Shown piece by piece: positions 2,693 to 46,520 of a stretch of DNA of 64,000 nucleotides; within the stretch, counting starts at the first letter, position 1; every line of letters starts with the position of its first letter. This DNA is from Sulfurimonas xiamenensis (GTDB lineage: Bacteria; Campylobacterota; Campylobacteria; Campylobacterales; Sulfurimonadaceae). Under the pieces are notes generated by a model. It saw only the letters and a list, made by a program, of their open reading frames with translations, was not told where the DNA came from and did no database searches. The stretch spans positions 744,001-808,000 of the forward strand of contig NZ_CP041166.1 of assembly GCF_009258045.1 (NCBI RefSeq). Reading direction: 5' to 3'. Both the position numbers and the translations under genes were made by a program.

Positions 2693-3580
2693 ATGCAAAG
2701 AGTTGAAAACGAAATTGCAAGACTAATTAAAGAGATAAATTATGATGAGGTCACTCGTCTTTTTGAGATGCTCTTAGGTGGAAAAAGGCTTCGTGCCAAA
2801 TTGATTTTAAAGATAGCCGCATCTCATAAAAAAGCTCCTCTTTTAGCGGCAATAGTAGAACTTATTCATGCGGCAAGTCTGCTTCATGATGATGTAATTG
2901 ATGAAGCAACATTAAGACGCGGAGTGGCTTCTGTAAATGCAACAGACGGGAGCAAAACAGCTGTAATGTTTGGTGATATCTTATACTCAAAAGCTTTTAC
3001 CGAGTTGGTTTCATTTGATAAAGAGATAGCAAAAATCATCTCATCTTCCGTTACGGCACTTAGCAAAGGTGAAATGATGGATGTTAAGATGGCAGATAAT
3101 TTTAACAGCGATGAAGAGAAATATCTTGAGATGCTATATCTTAAAACAGCCACTCTTATAGAAGCAGCGGCTCAAGCGGCTGCAATTTTAACCGGTAAAA
3201 ATCCTGAACCTTATGCATTATATGGTAGAAATCTTGGACTCTCTTTTCAAATAATAGATGATATTTTGGATATAACTGCCGATTCTGCAACTCTTGGAAA
3301 ACCTTCTATGAATGATTTTGCAGAGGGTAAATGCACACTTCCTTATATCTATCTATATAAAGTTTTAAGCGATGATGAAAAAGAGAGGTTAGTTAGCCTA
3401 CATGCAAAAGCATTAGACGAGCAAGAGACTCTTTGGATTAAACAAAAAATGCAAGAACATAAAACTATCGAAAAATCTTTTGAATTAGCACAAAAATTAT
3501 CAAATGAGGCTATGATTACCATGAAAGATGATGAACAACTCGTAAATATTTTACAAACTATGATAAAAAGAAGTTATTAA
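2693..3580 (+). CDS. ispB: All-trans polyprenyl diphosphate synthase (respiratory quinone side chain)
   Basis: Condenses isopentenyl diphosphate units into the long prenyl chain used for menaquinone. The 295-residue protein has the GGKRLR substrate site (29-34), the first aspartate-rich motif HDDVID (65-70) followed by RRG, and the second QIIDDILD motif with Asp189, Asp190 and Asp193. The residue five before the first motif is alanine, consistent with a long-chain product rather than FPP. Its TAA shares a base with the hemA ATG (TAATG), starting a coupled operon that also carries heme and menaquinone genes. Exact product length cannot be read from the sequence, and a geranylgeranyl synthase is less likely. 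Confidence 0.88.
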   Translation: MQRVENEIARLIKEINYDEVTRLFEMLLGGKRLRAKLILKIAASHKKAPLLAAIVELIHAASLLHDDVIDEATLRRGVASVNATDGSKTAVMFGDILYSKAFTELVSFDKEIAKIISSSVTALSKGEMMDVKMADNFNSDEEKYLEMLYLKTATLIEAAAQAAAILTGKNPEPYALYGRNLGLSFQIIDDILDITADSATLGKPSMNDFAEGKCTLPYIYLYKVLSDDEKERLVSLHAKALDEQETLWIKQKMQEHKTIEKSFELAQKLSNEAMITMKDDEQLVNILQTMIKRSY

Positions 3581-4878
3581 TGCACTATTTAAATATAAGT
3601 TTTTCACATAAAAATTCAACTTTAGAAATTAGAGAAAAACTTTCTTACAAAGATGATGATGCTATAAAAGCCTGTTTAATTAAGTTGAACTCCAGTGAAG
3701 CAATTAATGAGTCAATCCTTATTTCTACATGTAATCGTATGGAAGTATTTTGCAGTTGCAGTGATATTGCATCAGCAACACGGCATATTTTTGAGATGTT
3801 ATCTTTAAGATCAGGAATTAGTATAGATGAGCTTGAAGGAAGAGCTGATATATTTGATGACAGCAGTGCTATTCATCATATTTTTAGCGTTGCATCTTCA
3901 CTTGATTCAATGATTGTCGGAGAAACACAGATTCCAGGACAGTTAAAAGATGCTTTTAGACTCTCTTATGATAGCGGATATTGCGGTCAAAAATTGTCTC
4001 GTGCTATGCACCACGCTTTTAAATGTGCCGCAAAAGTCAGAAACGCAACAGATATCTCTTCAAAACCGGTTTCCATCGCCAGCGTTGCTGTAGCAAAACT
4101 AAAATCAATTCTTGATAATATTGAAGGAAAGAAAGCTTTAGTCATCGGTGTTGGAGAGATGTCAGAAATTACTGTTAAACATTTGATTTCAAGTGGCGCA
4201 GATGTTCATGTTATGAATAGAACAAAAGAGAAAGCTTTAGATTTGGCAAATATATGCGGTGTAAAAGTTTTAGATATGCAAGAGCTTCCAAAAGTGATAA
4301 ATGAATTTGAAATTCTTTTTACCGCTACGGCTGCATCTGAGCCTATTATAACAGATGAGATTATTAAGCCTTGCGATTTTGATAGGTATTGGTTTGACAT
4401 GGCACTTCCTCGCGATATTAATTATCACAAAGGTGACCGTATAAATCTTTATGTAATTGATGATTTAAAAAATATTGTAGATGAAAATTTAAATTTGCGT
4501 GAAGACAGTGCAAGAAGAGCTCATGGAATAATTGGACGGAGTACGGTAGAGTTTTTTGAATGGCTAAACACGCTTAATATTGAACCGATAATAAAAGAGA
4601 TATATCAAAAAGCTTTTGAAGCAGCAAAAGCGGAGAGTGACAGAGTTATAAAAAATGGTTACATTCCAAAAGAGTATGAAGCTCAGGTTCATAAAATGAG
4701 CGAACAGGTTATGAAAAGATTTTTACATCAAATGACCTCTAAAATGCGTAGTGTATCAGAGGAAGCAAAATCAGACATGGTAACAAGTGCTCTGCAGTTT
4801 TTAATAAATAAAGAAAGTAATGACATGCCTGATAAATATAAATGCGAGTATGCCTTAAATATTATAGAGGAAAAATAA
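3580..4878 (+). CDS. hemA: Glutamyl-tRNA reductase
   Basis: Reduces glutamyl-tRNA(Glu) to glutamate-1-semialdehyde, the first committed step of C5-pathway heme synthesis. Length is 432 residues. The catalytic cysteine lies in TCNRMEVF (Cys51). SSLDSMIVGETQI follows, then a Rossmann NADPH site VIGVGEMSE and a C-terminal helical dimerisation region. The ATG overlaps the prenyl synthase stop by one base, and proS starts three bases after the hemA stop. hemC follows in the same run and hemH is near the end of the window. The hemA-proS pairing is conserved in Campylobacter. Confidence 0.97.
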   Translation: MHYLNISFSHKNSTLEIREKLSYKDDDAIKACLIKLNSSEAINESILISTCNRMEVFCSCSDIASATRHIFEMLSLRSGISIDELEGRADIFDDSSAIHHIFSVASSLDSMIVGETQIPGQLKDAFRLSYDSGYCGQKLSRAMHHAFKCAAKVRNATDISSKPVSIASVAVAKLKSILDNIEGKKALVIGVGEMSEITVKHLISSGADVHVMNRTKEKALDLANICGVKVLDMQELPKVINEFEILFTATAASEPIITDEIIKPCDFDRYWFDMALPRDINYHKGDRINLYVIDDLKNIVDENLNLREDSARRAHGIIGRSTVEFFEWLNTLNIEPIIKEIYQKAFEAAKAESDRVIKNGYIPKEYEAQVHKMSEQVMKRFLHQMTSKMRSVSEEAKSDMVTSALQFLINKESNDMPDKYKCEYALNIIEEK

Positions 4879-42363: not shown

Positions 42364-43113
42364 CTAAAGATTGCTAGAAGCCACAAATGATGCCAGTTTT
42401 TGTATGAATTCGTTAGGGTTGGTGTCTGCTATCTCTTGAGCTAAAATTTTATTCGCACCGTCACCGAGTATCTTTTTGAAAACTGCTTTAATCTCTTCAA
42501 TATCGCTTTTATTCTCAAGCCTTCTTCTAAGACCGATAACATTTAAGCCTTTTATGGTTGCTTTGTTGCCTTCAACAAGCATAAAAGGAGGGATATCTGA
42601 GTTTACAACGGATGCTCCGCCAATCATAACCCCTGTTCCTATGGTGTTATTTGCCTCAACGACACTAAATCCGCCAAGTATAACTCTCTCCTCACACTTT
42701 ACATTCTCATAAAGTTTTACAGCATTTGTAACAATACAAAAATCACCCAGTTCAACGCCGCTAAGAAGCTGCACATACCCCATAAGAAAGTTGTTTGCAC
42801 CGATGATGACCTTTTTGCAGCTTCTATCTTCACTCTCTTGTGCACCTATTTGTGTAAACTCTCTTATATGTGTTTTCTCACCGATATGTATCTCTGAATT
42901 TTTATGTCCTATTACTGCAAAACTGAATATTTTAACATTTGGCTCAACTGTTAGTTTGCCTTTTAGTATGACATTTGACTCAAGTCTGCATCCCGGTTTT
43001 AGTTCAACATCTCTGCCGATAAAACAAAACGGACCTACTATAACATCAGAAGCTATTTTTGCACCATCTTCTATAATGGTTGATTTGTGAATATTTGCTC
43101 TATCTCTTGACAC
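42364..43113 (-). CDS. LpxA-family left-handed beta-helix acyltransferase, catalytic histidines missing
   Basis: A 249-residue protein built of hexapeptide repeats (about 8-175) with a helical C-terminus. The GNKATIKGLNVIGLRRR segment (182-198) is the LpxA signature that contacts the UDP sugar. Aligned by eye to E. coli LpxA, the catalytic His125 position is Ser118, and His122, His144 and His160 are Gln115, Asn137 and Glu153. So it is unlikely to be the standard O-acyltransferase. It is the last gene of a set with lpxB and GnnA/GnnB-like enzymes, which points to acylation or acetylation of a 3-amino sugar nucleotide. Its TAATG start couples it to the dehydrogenase. A WbpD/QdtC-like N-acetyltransferase role is an alternative. 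Confidence 0.8.
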   Translation of the reverse strand: MSRDRANIHKSTIIEDGAKIASDVIVGPFCFIGRDVELKPGCRLESNVILKGKLTVEPNVKIFSFAVIGHKNSEIHIGEKTHIREFTQIGAQESEDRSCKKVIIGANNFLMGYVQLLSGVELGDFCIVTNAVKLYENVKCEERVILGGFSVVEANNTIGTGVMIGGASVVNSDIPPFMLVEGNKATIKGLNVIGLRRRLENKSDIEEIKAVFKKILGDGANKILAQEIADTNPNEFIQKLASFVASSNL

Positions 43114-44021
43114 TATTTGCTCGCAATTTCTAGTGTGATTATGCTGTCATTTACAGTTGCCAATGAGCCTCTATCACCGGTTTGCAAGTAGTTTATAAAT
43201 GCTTCGAGTTCATCATATAGTGCATTGCTTCTGTTTACAAAGCAGTTTTTTGTTATGTGTGAATTTGGGTTGATATTTATACGCTCTTTTAGAGTTTGAG
43301 AGATAAGATCCGCTTCAAAATATTTTATTTTGCTGTGTTCATCTACTCTGCATGCCACTGCAATACTTCTTTTTCTGTATGGTGTAAGCCAGTTTGTAGA
43401 GATATCACCGATAATCTGGCCCTCAAGCTCAAATGCAAGAATGGCGTTGTCTTCATGCGTTTTATGAATTTTTTGAGATTTAAAAACTGCGCTGTTTATA
43501 ATATCTTTTTTTGTGATAAATCGAATGAGATCGCTATCATGAACCGAAAGATCAGTTAAAATTCCAACATCTGCAATACGCTCCGGAAAAGCTCCGCTTC
43601 TTGTAATGGAGATGGAGAGTATCTCATGATCTTTTATCTCATGCATAAGAGATTTTACAACCGGATTGTATCTCTCTATATGTCCTACACAGCTTTTGAT
43701 GCCGTTTGTTTCTATTGCACTAAGTATCTCTTTCGCATCTTCAACACTTGAAGCAGCAGGCTTTTCTATGAAAATGTCTACTTTGCGCGCAGCACATTTA
43801 AGTGCTGCATCCTTATGCAAAAATGTCGGAGTTACTATGATAACAGCATGAGGATTGCACTCTTGAAGCATTGTATCAAAGTCTGTAAAAAAAGGTTCTG
43901 TAAAATTTTCATTTTTTACAACATCACAAAGTCCTACAATTTTTACACCGCTTATCTTTTTAAGAGTGTTGTAGTGATTTTTTCCCATGGCACCGAGGCC
44001 GACAATAGCAATTCTTTTCAA
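43113..44021 (-). CDS. gnnA: Gfo/Idh/MocA sugar-nucleotide 3-dehydrogenase (GnnA-like)
   Basis: A 302-residue NAD-dependent oxidoreductase. The Rossmann motif [10 protein letters not shown] is at residues 8-17, the substrate-domain lysine motif FIEKPAAS near 90, and [12 protein letters not shown] supplies the usual histidine. In the neighbouring context the predicted reaction is oxidation of UDP-GlcNAc at C3, followed by transamination by the adjacent DegT-family enzyme, giving UDP-GlcNAc3N. That pathway (GnnA/GnnB) is established in Acidithiobacillus and Campylobacter. The sequence alone would equally fit WlbA/WbpB-type enzymes. Three bases separate it from the aminotransferase stop. Confidence 0.8.
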
Positions 44022-44024
44022 AAA

Positions 44025-45116
44025 TTAACCTTTAATAGCTTGTACTACAAAATCCTGCTCAGCTTCACTTAAATAAGCACTCATAGGCAGTGACATTATC
44101 TGTTTTGATACAAGTTCGCTTATAGGAAAATCCCCCTCTTTGTAGTCGAGATATTTAAAAGCCTCCTGCATATGAAGAGGAACAGGATAGTGAACGGCAG
44201 TTGGAATCTCTTTTTTATTCAGTTTTTCAATCATTGCTTCTCTATCTTTAACTCTTATTGAGTATTGAGCATATACGCTTGTTGCATTTGGTGCAATTTT
44301 TGGAGTGATTACATCACTATCTTCAAGTAAATCACTATATCTGCTCCCTATTTCATCTCTGAGTCGCACCTCTTTGTCAAAATGTTTTAGCTTAACATTT
44401 AAAACTGCAGCCTGAATAGCATCTAAGCGGCCGTTTATACCGATATATTTATGCTTGTATCTTTCATTTTGTCCGTGATTGAGAAGCATTCTCATTTTTT
44501 CTGCAAGTGCATCATCGTTTGTAAATATTGCTCCGCCGTCCCCATAAGCGCCAAGCGGTTTAGAAGGAAAAAAACTTGTGCATCCTATAGTTGAAAGATT
44601 GCATGATTTTTTATTATTATAGGTGGCACCGAAGCTTTGGCATGCGTCTTCTATAACAGAGAGATTATGTTTTTTTGCTATATCATTTATAGCTTCCATA
44701 TCGGCGCACTGTCCGTAGAGTGAAACCGGCATAATAGCCTTTGTTCTTTCTGTAATAGCATCTTCTATTTTAGAGGGATCAATATTGTAGCTCTCTTCAT
44801 CAATATCTACAAAAACAGGTTTTGCACCTAAAAGTGCAATAACTTCGGCAGTTGAAATAAAAGTAAAAGGGGAAGTTATTACTTCATCTCCTGCACTGAT
44901 ATCAAGTGCCATAAGTGACAATAAAAGTGCATCAGTCCCGCTGCTGCATCCTATGGCATGTTTTGAACCTGTATATGCAGCAAGATTTTTCTCAAATAAA
45001 TTTAGTTTTTCTCCGCCAATAAATTGTGCTAAAGACATAACCTCTAACACTTCACTGTCTATCTCTTTTTTATACTCTTTGTATTGAGCTTGTAGATCTA
45101 TAAAATTAATTTTCAT
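44025..45116 (-). CDS. gnnB: DegT/DnrJ/EryC1/StrS aminotransferase (GnnB-like)
   Basis: A 363-residue PLP enzyme of the sugar-nucleotide aminotransferase family. IGCSSGTDALLLSL binds the phosphate, VIEDACQSFGA supplies the pyridine-nitrogen aspartate, and Lys186 in SFFPSKPLGAYGDGG is the Schiff-base lysine. With the GnnA-like dehydrogenase it should place an amino group on C3 of UDP-GlcNAc. It overlaps lpxB by 11 bases, an unusually direct link to lipid A assembly. An O-antigen or glycan role (WbpE type) cannot be excluded. Confidence 0.85.
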   Translation of the reverse strand: MKINFIDLQAQYKEYKKEIDSEVLEVMSLAQFIGGEKLNLFEKNLAAYTGSKHAIGCSSGTDALLLSLMALDISAGDEVITSPFTFISTAEVIALLGAKPVFVDIDEESYNIDPSKIEDAITERTKAIMPVSLYGQCADMEAINDIAKKHNLSVIEDACQSFGATYNNKKSCNLSTIGCTSFFPSKPLGAYGDGGAIFTNDDALAEKMRMLLNHGQNERYKHKYIGINGRLDAIQAAVLNVKLKHFDKEVRLRDEIGSRYSDLLEDSDVITPKIAPNATSVYAQYSIRVKDREAMIEKLNKKEIPTAVHYPVPLHMQEAFKYLDYKEGDFPISELVSKQIMSLPMSAYLSEAEQDFVVQAIKG

Positions 45117-46161
45117 GCGTATCCTCTATAATTTTTGCTACTGTTTTAGAACTGCCGTGCTTCAAATAGGCCCTTAATGTTTTTGAATCACTTAAAAATC
45201 TGCTTCTGTCATATTCGCGATATGCTTTTATAAGATTCTCAACCGTTACATTATCTTGAATAAATTCAGGATGCAACGCTCTGTTTTGAAATTTGCTAAA
45301 CATAATATTTCCAAGCCCTATATACTCAAGCTTTACAAGTTTGCTTGCTATAAAGTAGTCTAAAGGTTTGGCAATATAGCTTAGTACAAACGGTATCCCT
45401 ATAAGAGATGCTTCCAAAGTAGCCGTTCCGCTGCAAATAAAAGCAAAATCTGCATCTATAAGTGTTTTGTGTGCATCATGAGCTATTTTAAAACCTGAAA
45501 GGTTACCATAAAGTTCTTTTATATCTTCTTTGCAGAAGTGTTCTGGTATTACAATTGTTGATTCAACATTAAGCTTTTTTTGCACCTCTGCAAATATGGG
45601 CATAAGCTTTTTTATCTCACCTTTTCTGCTTCCTGGCATAAAGGCAATATGTTTTACTTCACTGTTTATTTTTTCTTTAAACTCTTTGATTTGGTCAAGA
45701 AGAGGATGCCCCACATAAGTAATAGGTGCATTTTTAGAGTAGTACTCTTTTTCAAAAGGCAAAATAGAAGCTAAATGGTCTATAGTTTTTTCTAAAATAG
45801 GTATGCGTTTTTTCTTCCATGCCCATGCTTGAGGCAAAATATAGTAAATTATCTCTTTATGAGGATATTTTTTTTTGATTTTTTTAGCAAGCGGCAGGTT
45901 AAAACCTGATGAATCGATAAGAAGAACCTTATCAACATCTTTTGCCAAATCTAATATTTGATTGTTTAATTTAAAAAAAAATCTTAGCTTTTTTATTACA
46001 TCTACAAACCCCATTATGGCAAGACTTCTTAAGTCTATTATGCTCTCTCCCAGCTCTTTGTCAAAGATACCGACAAACTCCACATTAGGGCTTAACTCCT
46101 TTTTTAAAGATTTAAGATGTACATTTGCTGAATGCTCAAGTGCCGATACTAATATTTTCAT
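45106..46161 (-). CDS. lpxB: Lipid-A-disaccharide synthase
   Basis: Joins 2,3-diacyl-GlcN-1-phosphate (lipid X) with its UDP form to make the lipid A disaccharide at the inner membrane. The 351-residue protein has the LIDSSGFNLPLAK segment, YYILPQAWAWKKKRI, the FMPGSRKGEIKKLMP loop and the C-terminal FICSGTATLEASLIGIPFVLSY signature of the family. The N-terminal ALEHSAN replaces the GEASGD of enterobacteria, as in Campylobacter LpxB. It overlaps the cytochrome gene upstream by four bases and gnnB downstream by 11. Confidence 0.95.
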   Translation of the reverse strand: MKILVSALEHSANVHLKSLKKELSPNVEFVGIFDKELGESIIDLRSLAIMGFVDVIKKLRFFFKLNNQILDLAKDVDKVLLIDSSGFNLPLAKKIKKKYPHKEIIYYILPQAWAWKKKRIPILEKTIDHLASILPFEKEYYSKNAPITYVGHPLLDQIKEFKEKINSEVKHIAFMPGSRKGEIKKLMPIFAEVQKKLNVESTIVIPEHFCKEDIKELYGNLSGFKIAHDAHKTLIDADFAFICSGTATLEASLIGIPFVLSYIAKPLDYFIASKLVKLEYIGLGNIMFSKFQNRALHPEFIQDNVTVENLIKAYREYDRSRFLSDSKTLRAYLKHGSSKTVAKIIEDTHEN

Positions 46162-46520
46162 GAACCGCCGTCCCCATGTATTTGATAACTGTCATCATAT
46201 TTTTCACTACTCTCCTGTGCAACAAATTCATTGATATAAGTTGCCAAATTTTCTATATCATCATCACTTAAATCTACTGCAAAAGGTATCATCATCTCTT
46301 GTTGTTGATTGTCAGAGATTTTTGAGCGAAATTGTTTCAATTTGTATATCATATAACCTTTTGCACGGTTTGCAAGATATGGATATTTATGCACACCCTC
46401 AAGTTTTGTTCCGTGACAGCTGTAACAACCCTTTTGCATATAGAGAATTTTTCCCGATTCATAAGCCGTTTTAGCATGTGAAAAGGAGAAGAACAATAAA
46501 AACAAAAAAATAAAACGCAA
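46158..46520 (-). CDS. Periplasmic monoheme cytochrome c
   Basis: A 120-residue class I cytochrome c. A signal peptide (1-16, ending SHA) is followed by the heme motif CYSCH (32-36), HKYPYLANRAKGYMIYKLKQF typical of small cytochromes c553-like, the methionine region QEMMIPFA and the closing helix LSDDDIENLATYINEF. It should carry electrons in the periplasm. Its last four bases overlap lpxB, so it opens the lipid A cluster transcript; the functional link is unclear and may be only positional. Confidence 0.9.
   Translation of the reverse strand: MRFIFLFLLFFSFSHAKTAYESGKILYMQKGCYSCHGTKLEGVHKYPYLANRAKGYMIYKLKQFRSKISDNQQQEMMIPFAVDLSDDDIENLATYINEFVAQESSEKYDDSYQIHGDGGS

Follow-up and report, generated by a model that had tools for sequence, protein, structure and literature searches.

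Genes at the lpxA2 locus

The window, a stretch of 64,000 nucleotides of the Sulfurimonas xiamenensis genome, carries at 42364..43113 on the minus strand a gene for an LpxA-family acyltransferase of 249 amino acids that lacks the histidines usual in that family. The plus-strand reading of these positions is riddled with stops; the real ORF lies on the minus strand, has a GTG start and overlaps with its first base the last base of the preceding gene. We use "LpxA2", a label coined here, for this His-less protein and "LpxA1" for the ordinary histidine-bearing LpxA. The preceding gene, gnnA-like (43113..44021, minus strand), encodes a Gfo/Idh/MocA oxidoreductase (PF01408 above cut-off) predicted to be a UDP-GlcNAc 3-dehydrogenase, and lies behind a gnnB-like gene for a DegT/DnrJ/EryC1 aminotransferase (44025..45116, minus strand; PF01041, 415 bits) and, in the same gene string, lpxB for lipid-A-disaccharide synthase (45106..46161, minus strand; TIGR00215 above cut-off, PF02684). 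The string lpxB-gnnB-gnnA-lpxA2 is headed by a minus-strand gene at 46158..46520 for a small cytochrome-c-like protein, assigned from its position and synteny and with CxxCH in its translation.

The names gnnA and gnnB are taken from family, gene order and the literature, as no NCBIfam model scores above its cut-off with either protein; the best for the gnnA-like protein, UDP-GlcNAc 3-dehydrogenase, gives 191.6 bits, below its cut-off of 450. The predicted product of the two enzymes is UDP-GlcNAc3N. The solved structures closest to the GnnB-like protein are WbpE (3nu7, E 8.3e-117) and QdtB (3frk, E 5.2e-90), which we take to be sugar 3-aminotransferases serving surface glycans.

LpxA2 itself falls below both curated LpxA cut-offs, with 187.3 against 226 bits for NF003657 and 185.3 against 231.05 for TIGR01852, and contains the LpxA C-terminal domain PF13720 (57.2 bits, cut-off 24.5). 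The LpxD profile gives 61.3 bits against a cut-off of 242.5 and matches at profile positions 109-293 of 325 only. A search of the genome (one contig, 1,916,242 bases) for a second, histidine-bearing lpxA located it beside fabZ at C1:1347617-1348354; this ordinary LpxA1 has all four histidines, and the third LpxA match in the genome is weak (E 0.003).

Predicted structure of LpxA2

LpxA2 was modelled as a monomer with AlphaFold2 from a 32-row alignment (A2). The best of five models has a pLDDT of 91.2 and a pTM of 0.88, the other four reaching 66-72, and bears out the earlier note's description of a complete LpxA-like beta-helix followed by the C-terminal segment. LpxA chains are the top structural matches, with a Z-score of 29.0 and an r.m.s.d. 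of 2.1 over 240-241 residues spanning 6-249 of the protein. Other proteins follow with Z-scores of 23-24 for LpxD, up to 21.8 for GlmU and 21.4, over 187 residues, for QdtC. QdtC and WlbB are beta-helix amino-sugar N-acetyltransferases that use acetyl-CoA, do without a protein base and are without the LpxA C-terminal domain; WlbB is not among the best 50 structure matches listed, which has no bearing on its fold.

Active-site residues of LpxA2

Residues were mapped by phmmer against the solved LpxA structures 1J2Z, 6OSS and 3R0S, of which 1J2Z is the top match of LpxA2 (E 1.2e-36), and by MAFFT L-INS-i with LpxA of E. coli MG1655. The replacement of the four histidines, proposed from an alignment by eye, is upheld by both alignments: E. 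coli His122 corresponds to Gln115, His125 to Ser118, His144 to Asn137 and His160 to Glu153, and when another histidine was looked for in the LpxA2 active site by alignment, none was found to fall there. In addition Asp126, which we take to be the partner of the catalytic base, has become Gly119, and the sugar-contact loop formed by E. coli residues 72-76 (including Q73-D74-L75-K76) is deleted. Since the catalytic histidines, the defining feature for which the protein was tested, are absent, we have not filed LpxA2 as an LpxA O-acyltransferase.

These changes are shared by the relatives of the protein. Residue counts were made over 52 rows of LpxA2 type, in which the S. xiamenensis gene occurs twice (WIN and L001), and 63 rows of LpxA1 type from the class, leaving out 17 sequences that were too short (16 of LpxA2 type and 1 of LpxA1 type), as well as any row identical to another over its first 240 residues. 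No LpxA2 row has a histidine at position 122, 125 or 144 (E. coli numbering), two have one at 160, and the 72-76 loop is absent from all 52; all four histidines are present in 63/63 LpxA1-type rows. Because the loss is shared across the one set and unseen in the other, it is neither chance nor a sequencing fault.

The substitutions are unevenly spread over the binding site. With the pockets of E. coli LpxA defined by Table 1 of PMC7072397, in the part of that paper available (the table has Glu201; MG1655 has Gly201), the consensus residue is the same in LpxA2 and LpxA1 at 7/9 positions of the UDP pocket, part of the acyl groove included, versus 0/9 positions of the GlcNAc pocket (p 0.0023; 0.021 if the deleted columns are dropped and 0.007 if the deletion is counted once). 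Asn198, Arg204, Gly201, Met118, Met170 and Gly173 are kept in all 52 LpxA2 rows and Ile134 in 46. This conservation suggests that LpxA2 keeps UDP and acyl-chain binding as in LpxA. The enzyme probably acts as LpxA does, but with a different acceptor. Compared with the LpxA enzymes of E. coli, of H. pylori type (1J2Z) and of C. jejuni (3R0S), it has the same left-handed beta-helix, C-terminal helices, UDP and acyl-groove residues and Gly173, but it lacks the His125/Asp126 pair, the other three histidines and the loop, and its profile score is below the curated cut-off.

Several residues are characteristic of LpxA2 (E. coli numbering): Gln122 (49/52), Gly126 (52/52), Glu143 (49/52), Phe116 and Thr136 (both 52/52) and Gln101 (47/52). 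The Glu at E. coli Gly143, Glu136 in S. xiamenensis LpxA2, is a new carboxylate. Positions 125, 143 and 161 are spaced 18 residues apart, equal to one coil of the helix, and from this spacing Glu136 should stand beside the place of the lost base. Position 125 is itself occupied by Ser in 27 rows, Gly in 7, Asn in 6, Pro in 5, Phe in 3 and four other residues once each, and is among the most variable within the LpxA2 clade (92nd percentile), while eight sugar-pocket positions are of average conservation (mean 51st percentile). These patterns agree both with a rebuilt pocket in which a small number of residues are fixed and with partial decay of the pocket.

Distribution and selection

A scan of genome contigs gave 26 named-record loci with close relatives of LpxA2 (69-85% identity), 19 of them in Sulfurimonas records. 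The gnnA-like gene directly precedes lpxA2 in 26/26, and lpxB is present in 23, the remaining three contigs beginning too late to hold it. Among 298 genomes of the class Campylobacteria, a profile of LpxA2 scored at least 278 bits in 8 genomes, all Sulfurimonadaceae, and the next-best score (224.8) belongs to a histidine LpxA.

We then surveyed 173 Sulfurimonadaceae genomes of at least 85% completeness, counting as LpxA2 any match of at least 203 bits to the S. xiamenensis protein; with the second fragments of two split genes set aside, the next score below is 166.9. LpxA2 is present in 55/173 genomes from 8 genera, and another LpxA match accompanies it in 54 of these, the exception being a genome (G391) that is 89% complete. 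The order gnnB-gnnA-lpxA2 recurs in all 8 genera, in one genome (G313) with two additional ORFs separating gnnA from lpxA2. In 6 genera lpxB adjoins these genes; it was not found beside them in G306 (L138) or G312 (L147). In L147 gnnB is flanked on its other side by a piece of metE.

For four pairs of genomes dN/dS of LpxA2 is 0.093, 0.080, 0.096 and 0.105, and for gnnA, gnnB and lpxB of the same genomes it is 0.051-0.084 (leaving aside a gnnA pair interrupted by an in-frame stop, and one pair for lpxB), and LpxA2 is thus under purifying selection. In a tree of Campylobacteria LpxA, LpxA2 forms one clade (22 chosen rows, SH-aLRT 100), the stem of which measures 1.75 changes per column. The clade sits near family f7, a placement for which long-branch attraction is possible because of that long stem.

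Association with GnnA and GnnB

GnnA was found in 57/173 genomes of the family survey; 55 have both GnnA and LpxA2, two have GnnA only, none has LpxA2 only and 116 have neither. The corresponding Fisher value of 2.6e-43 ignores both relatedness and linkage, and the co-occurrence is partly mere physical linkage. Phylogenetic pairing on a tree of LpxA1 from 24 family genomes yielded just one and two independent pairs on supported branches for GnnA and LpxD2 (see below), respectively; since this test is too weak to count, the Fisher values for the GnnA and LpxD ties are left ignoring relatedness. In one of the GnnA-only genomes (G440) the contig ends inside gnnA. The other (G441, L133) has gnnA, gnnB and lpxB and a single LpxA1 on a long branch, and despite these genes LpxA2 and LpxD2 were not found in it. 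Beside its gnnA lies an ORF of the plus strand that is unrelated and, judged by eye, resembles a peptidase gene.

A strong GnnB match (at least 550 bits) is present in 53/55 LpxA2 genomes, and the remaining two (G396 and G439) hold a partial GnnB. At the lpxB locus of seven LpxA2-free genomes gnnA and lpxA2 are both absent in 7/7 and a gnnB-like gene is kept beside lpxB in three (L303 of G253, L304 of G359 and L309 of G422). Thus gnnA and lpxA2 appear and disappear as a pair, while gnnB can be retained. One of the other four (G009) has a 59% relative of GnnB elsewhere in its genome. At another locus (L145 of G428, about 3217-4118) gnnA is split over two frames next to an intact lpxA2, by a frameshift or a sequencing error.

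A genome of another family (G134) has the order lpxB-lpxA'-gnnB-gnnA-fabZ-lpxA (L135, C1:1143000-1156000). The gnn-linked second LpxA of this genome keeps all four histidines, with Asp74 changed to Ser and Lys76 to Gly, so a partner of the gnn genes need not lose its histidines.

In families f3, f10 and f12 some lineages that carry gnnA and have just one LpxA show Gly or Ser in place of Lys76. We considered residue 76 of a single LpxA as a marker of GlcNAc3N acylation and kept it as a lead only, the picture being mixed: among genomes with gnnA, four of f10 have Gly at this position, two of f3 have Ser and four of f8 have Lys; the residue is also Lys in G117 (f6) and G218 (f7), and Ser again in G262, with a weak GnnA match only, and G105, with no GnnA match. 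For L. interrogans LpxA the available part of PMC7072397 gives Gly71 in Table 1 and Phe72 in the text, and the table entry may be unsafe.

A second LpxD

Two LpxD matches occur in 37/55 LpxA2 genomes versus 4/118 other genomes of the survey. In S. xiamenensis (G000, L244) they are a tandem lpxD pair at C1:931468-933375, the first copy of which, lpxD2 (C1:931468-932403), lies about 140 kb from the lpxA2 operon and is thus unlinked to it. For this reason we regard the association with LpxD2 as the more telling one. LpxD2 forms one clade (9 rows, SH-aLRT 100), and at E. coli position 236, occupied by Gln in LpxD1, 33/33 loci of this type encode His. A search with LpxD2 itself found the type in 39/173 genomes, namely 37/55 with LpxA2 and 2/118 without. 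These two are G440, in which GnnA is present at a contig end, and G424, which is probably without the operon stretch because no lpxB was matched in its assembly either. In G366 and G345 the second LpxD gave no match to LpxD2 at E 1e-30. At the threshold used LpxD2 was not found in 18/55 LpxA2 genomes, among which G439 has a fragment. Another of these 18 (G400, L285) has a single LpxD, only 49% identical to LpxD2, with His at 236.

LpxD carries out the acyl-ACP-dependent N-acylation of a UDP-amino sugar. In a motif common to both proteins its Gln236 stands where LpxA has His122, and at this position LpxA2 has gained Gln and LpxD2 His. LpxA2 is thus like LpxD here, but LpxD keeps His239 and has an N-terminal part, both of which are absent from LpxA2.

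Discussion

No description of a histidine-free LpxA was found among the literature matches listed. Two lpxA genes together with gnnA and gnnB are known from Capnocytophaga canimorsus; the authors of that work connect lpxA, lpxA', gnnA and gnnB with the hybrid GlcN3N-GlcN backbone of its lipid A (PMC3342949, in the part of the text available). That genome resembles S. xiamenensis in this gene content; it differs in belonging to another phylum and in that its lpxA and lpxA', according to the same part, cluster with lpxC and lpxD. The two lpxA genes of Segatella copri are said, in the accessible portion of PMC12643348, to retain the catalytic residues.

The LpxA of Leptospira interrogans (3HSQ), presumably selective for UDP-GlcNAc3N, would share its acceptor with LpxA2. 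The title of 3HSQ mentions sugar nucleotide selectivity, and the phmmer match of this chain to LpxA2 has an E of 2.8e-14 only. In contrast to LpxA2, the Leptospira enzyme keeps the catalytic histidine (His120 in Table 1 of PMC7072397, part of which was available). Campylobacter jejuni, the lipid A of which has a GlcN3N-GlcN backbone according to the available text of PMC7956469, likewise has an LpxA that bears the histidines (3R0S). Among N-acetyltransferases related to WlbB and QdtC, a histidine base has been assigned to one enzyme (PMC8040287, available in part), so that catalysis without a protein base does not hold throughout this class. The earlier note had connected the loss of the histidines with acylation of an amine; in view of the LpxA enzymes of C. 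jejuni and G134, such a loss is apparently not needed for it.

The other half of that proposal, N-acylation of the 3-amine made by the neighbouring enzymes, gains from the linkage to gnnA, the presence of LpxA2 in 55/57 GnnA genomes and the unlinked second LpxD; the function itself is a prediction from sequence. We think it probable that LpxA2 is an acyl-ACP-dependent N-acyltransferase that acylates UDP-GlcNAc3N at its 3-amino group with a 3-hydroxyacyl chain and so opens a separate GlcN3N track of lipid A synthesis. LpxA1 would keep the O-acylation of UDP-GlcNAc, and LpxA2 would serve the GlcN3N track, with 3-hydroxyacyl-ACP as the putative donor and UDP-GlcNAc3N as the acceptor, N-acylated at C3. 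UDP and the acyl chain would be bound as in LpxA, in keeping with the conserved residues, and the alignment shows a replaced sugar pocket, which has lost the His125/Asp126 pair together with the 72-76 loop and has gained Glu136 and Gln115. A histidine base would not be required because the amine is presumably nucleophilic enough, and Glu136, Gln115 or both may hold the ammonium group in place or remove its proton. In most LpxA2 genomes LpxD2, with its altered active site, would probably take over the UDP-3-N-acyl precursor.

As the chief alternative, LpxA2 might be inactive alone and act as a partner in mixed LpxA1-LpxA2 trimers, shifting specificity or flux. According to the available part of PMC7072397 the active site of LpxA takes its UDP pocket from one subunit and its GlcNAc/catalytic pocket from the neighbour, and since LpxA2 retains just the UDP half, the catalytic half being lost, a mixed site could pair it with the catalytic half of LpxA1. 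The variable position 125 and the averagely conserved pocket are what a decayed catalytic half would display, and nearly every LpxA2 genome has a further LpxA match. However, Gln115, Gly119 and Glu136 are specific, near-invariant replacements and not decay, the need for gnnA is not obvious, and modelling of the two S. copri LpxA proteins, a different case, favoured homotrimers (PMC12643348, in its accessible portion); we regard mixed trimers as unlikely. In-frame stops in a few orthologs (for example L024, G371, G400 and G317) and the long stem branch would fit a dying gene, but this reading can hardly be credited with a dN/dS of 0.080-0.105, little above that of the operon neighbours, and a gene readable in 55 genomes of 8 genera.

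Two further readings concern the reaction. Acylation of the GnnA/GnnB product in the manner of WlbB and QdtC, either with an acyl group that is short or unusual or in the making of a surface glycan and not of lipid A, would accord with the nearness of the GnnB-like protein to WbpE and QdtB, which serve surface glycans, with the alignment of QdtC to the LpxA2 model and with the two genomes in which lpxB was not found beside the genes. We consider it improbable, given that LpxA chains fit the model better and over its whole length, that PF13720 is present, that Gly173, Met118 and Met170 are kept throughout and Ile134 in 46/52, and that the usual neighbour is lpxB and the unlinked associate a second lpxD. 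Still more doubtful is an ordinary UDP-GlcNAc O-acyltransferase that uses another base, such as Glu136, perhaps for another chain length: the LpxA fold and the UDP site are kept and the glutamate is present in 49/52 rows, but the whole GlcNAc pocket of Table 1 is replaced, the gene is tied to gnnA and a histidine LpxA1 is already in the genome.

Building on the N-acyltransferase reading, we put forward, as a tentative and possible picture, that in many Sulfurimonadaceae early lipid A synthesis follows two parallel tracks within one cell, with LpxA1 and LpxD1 for GlcN and GnnA, GnnB, the His-free LpxA2 and LpxD2 for GlcN3N, LpxA2 using acyl-ACP on an amine in a pocket rebuilt around a new glutamate. 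No Sulfurimonas lipid A structure is announced in the titles of the literature matches listed. If the picture is true, the LpxA scaffold would be separable from its histidine base, the two being joined in the LpxA enzymes of the cited papers as far as their available text goes, and LpxA2 would offer a direct test of whether lipid A amide formation needs general-base catalysis. One genome would sort two sugar nucleotides into lipid A, perhaps as a hybrid backbone, through duplication of LpxA and LpxD, and gene content would allow the prediction of lipid A type in many Sulfurimonas and their relatives.
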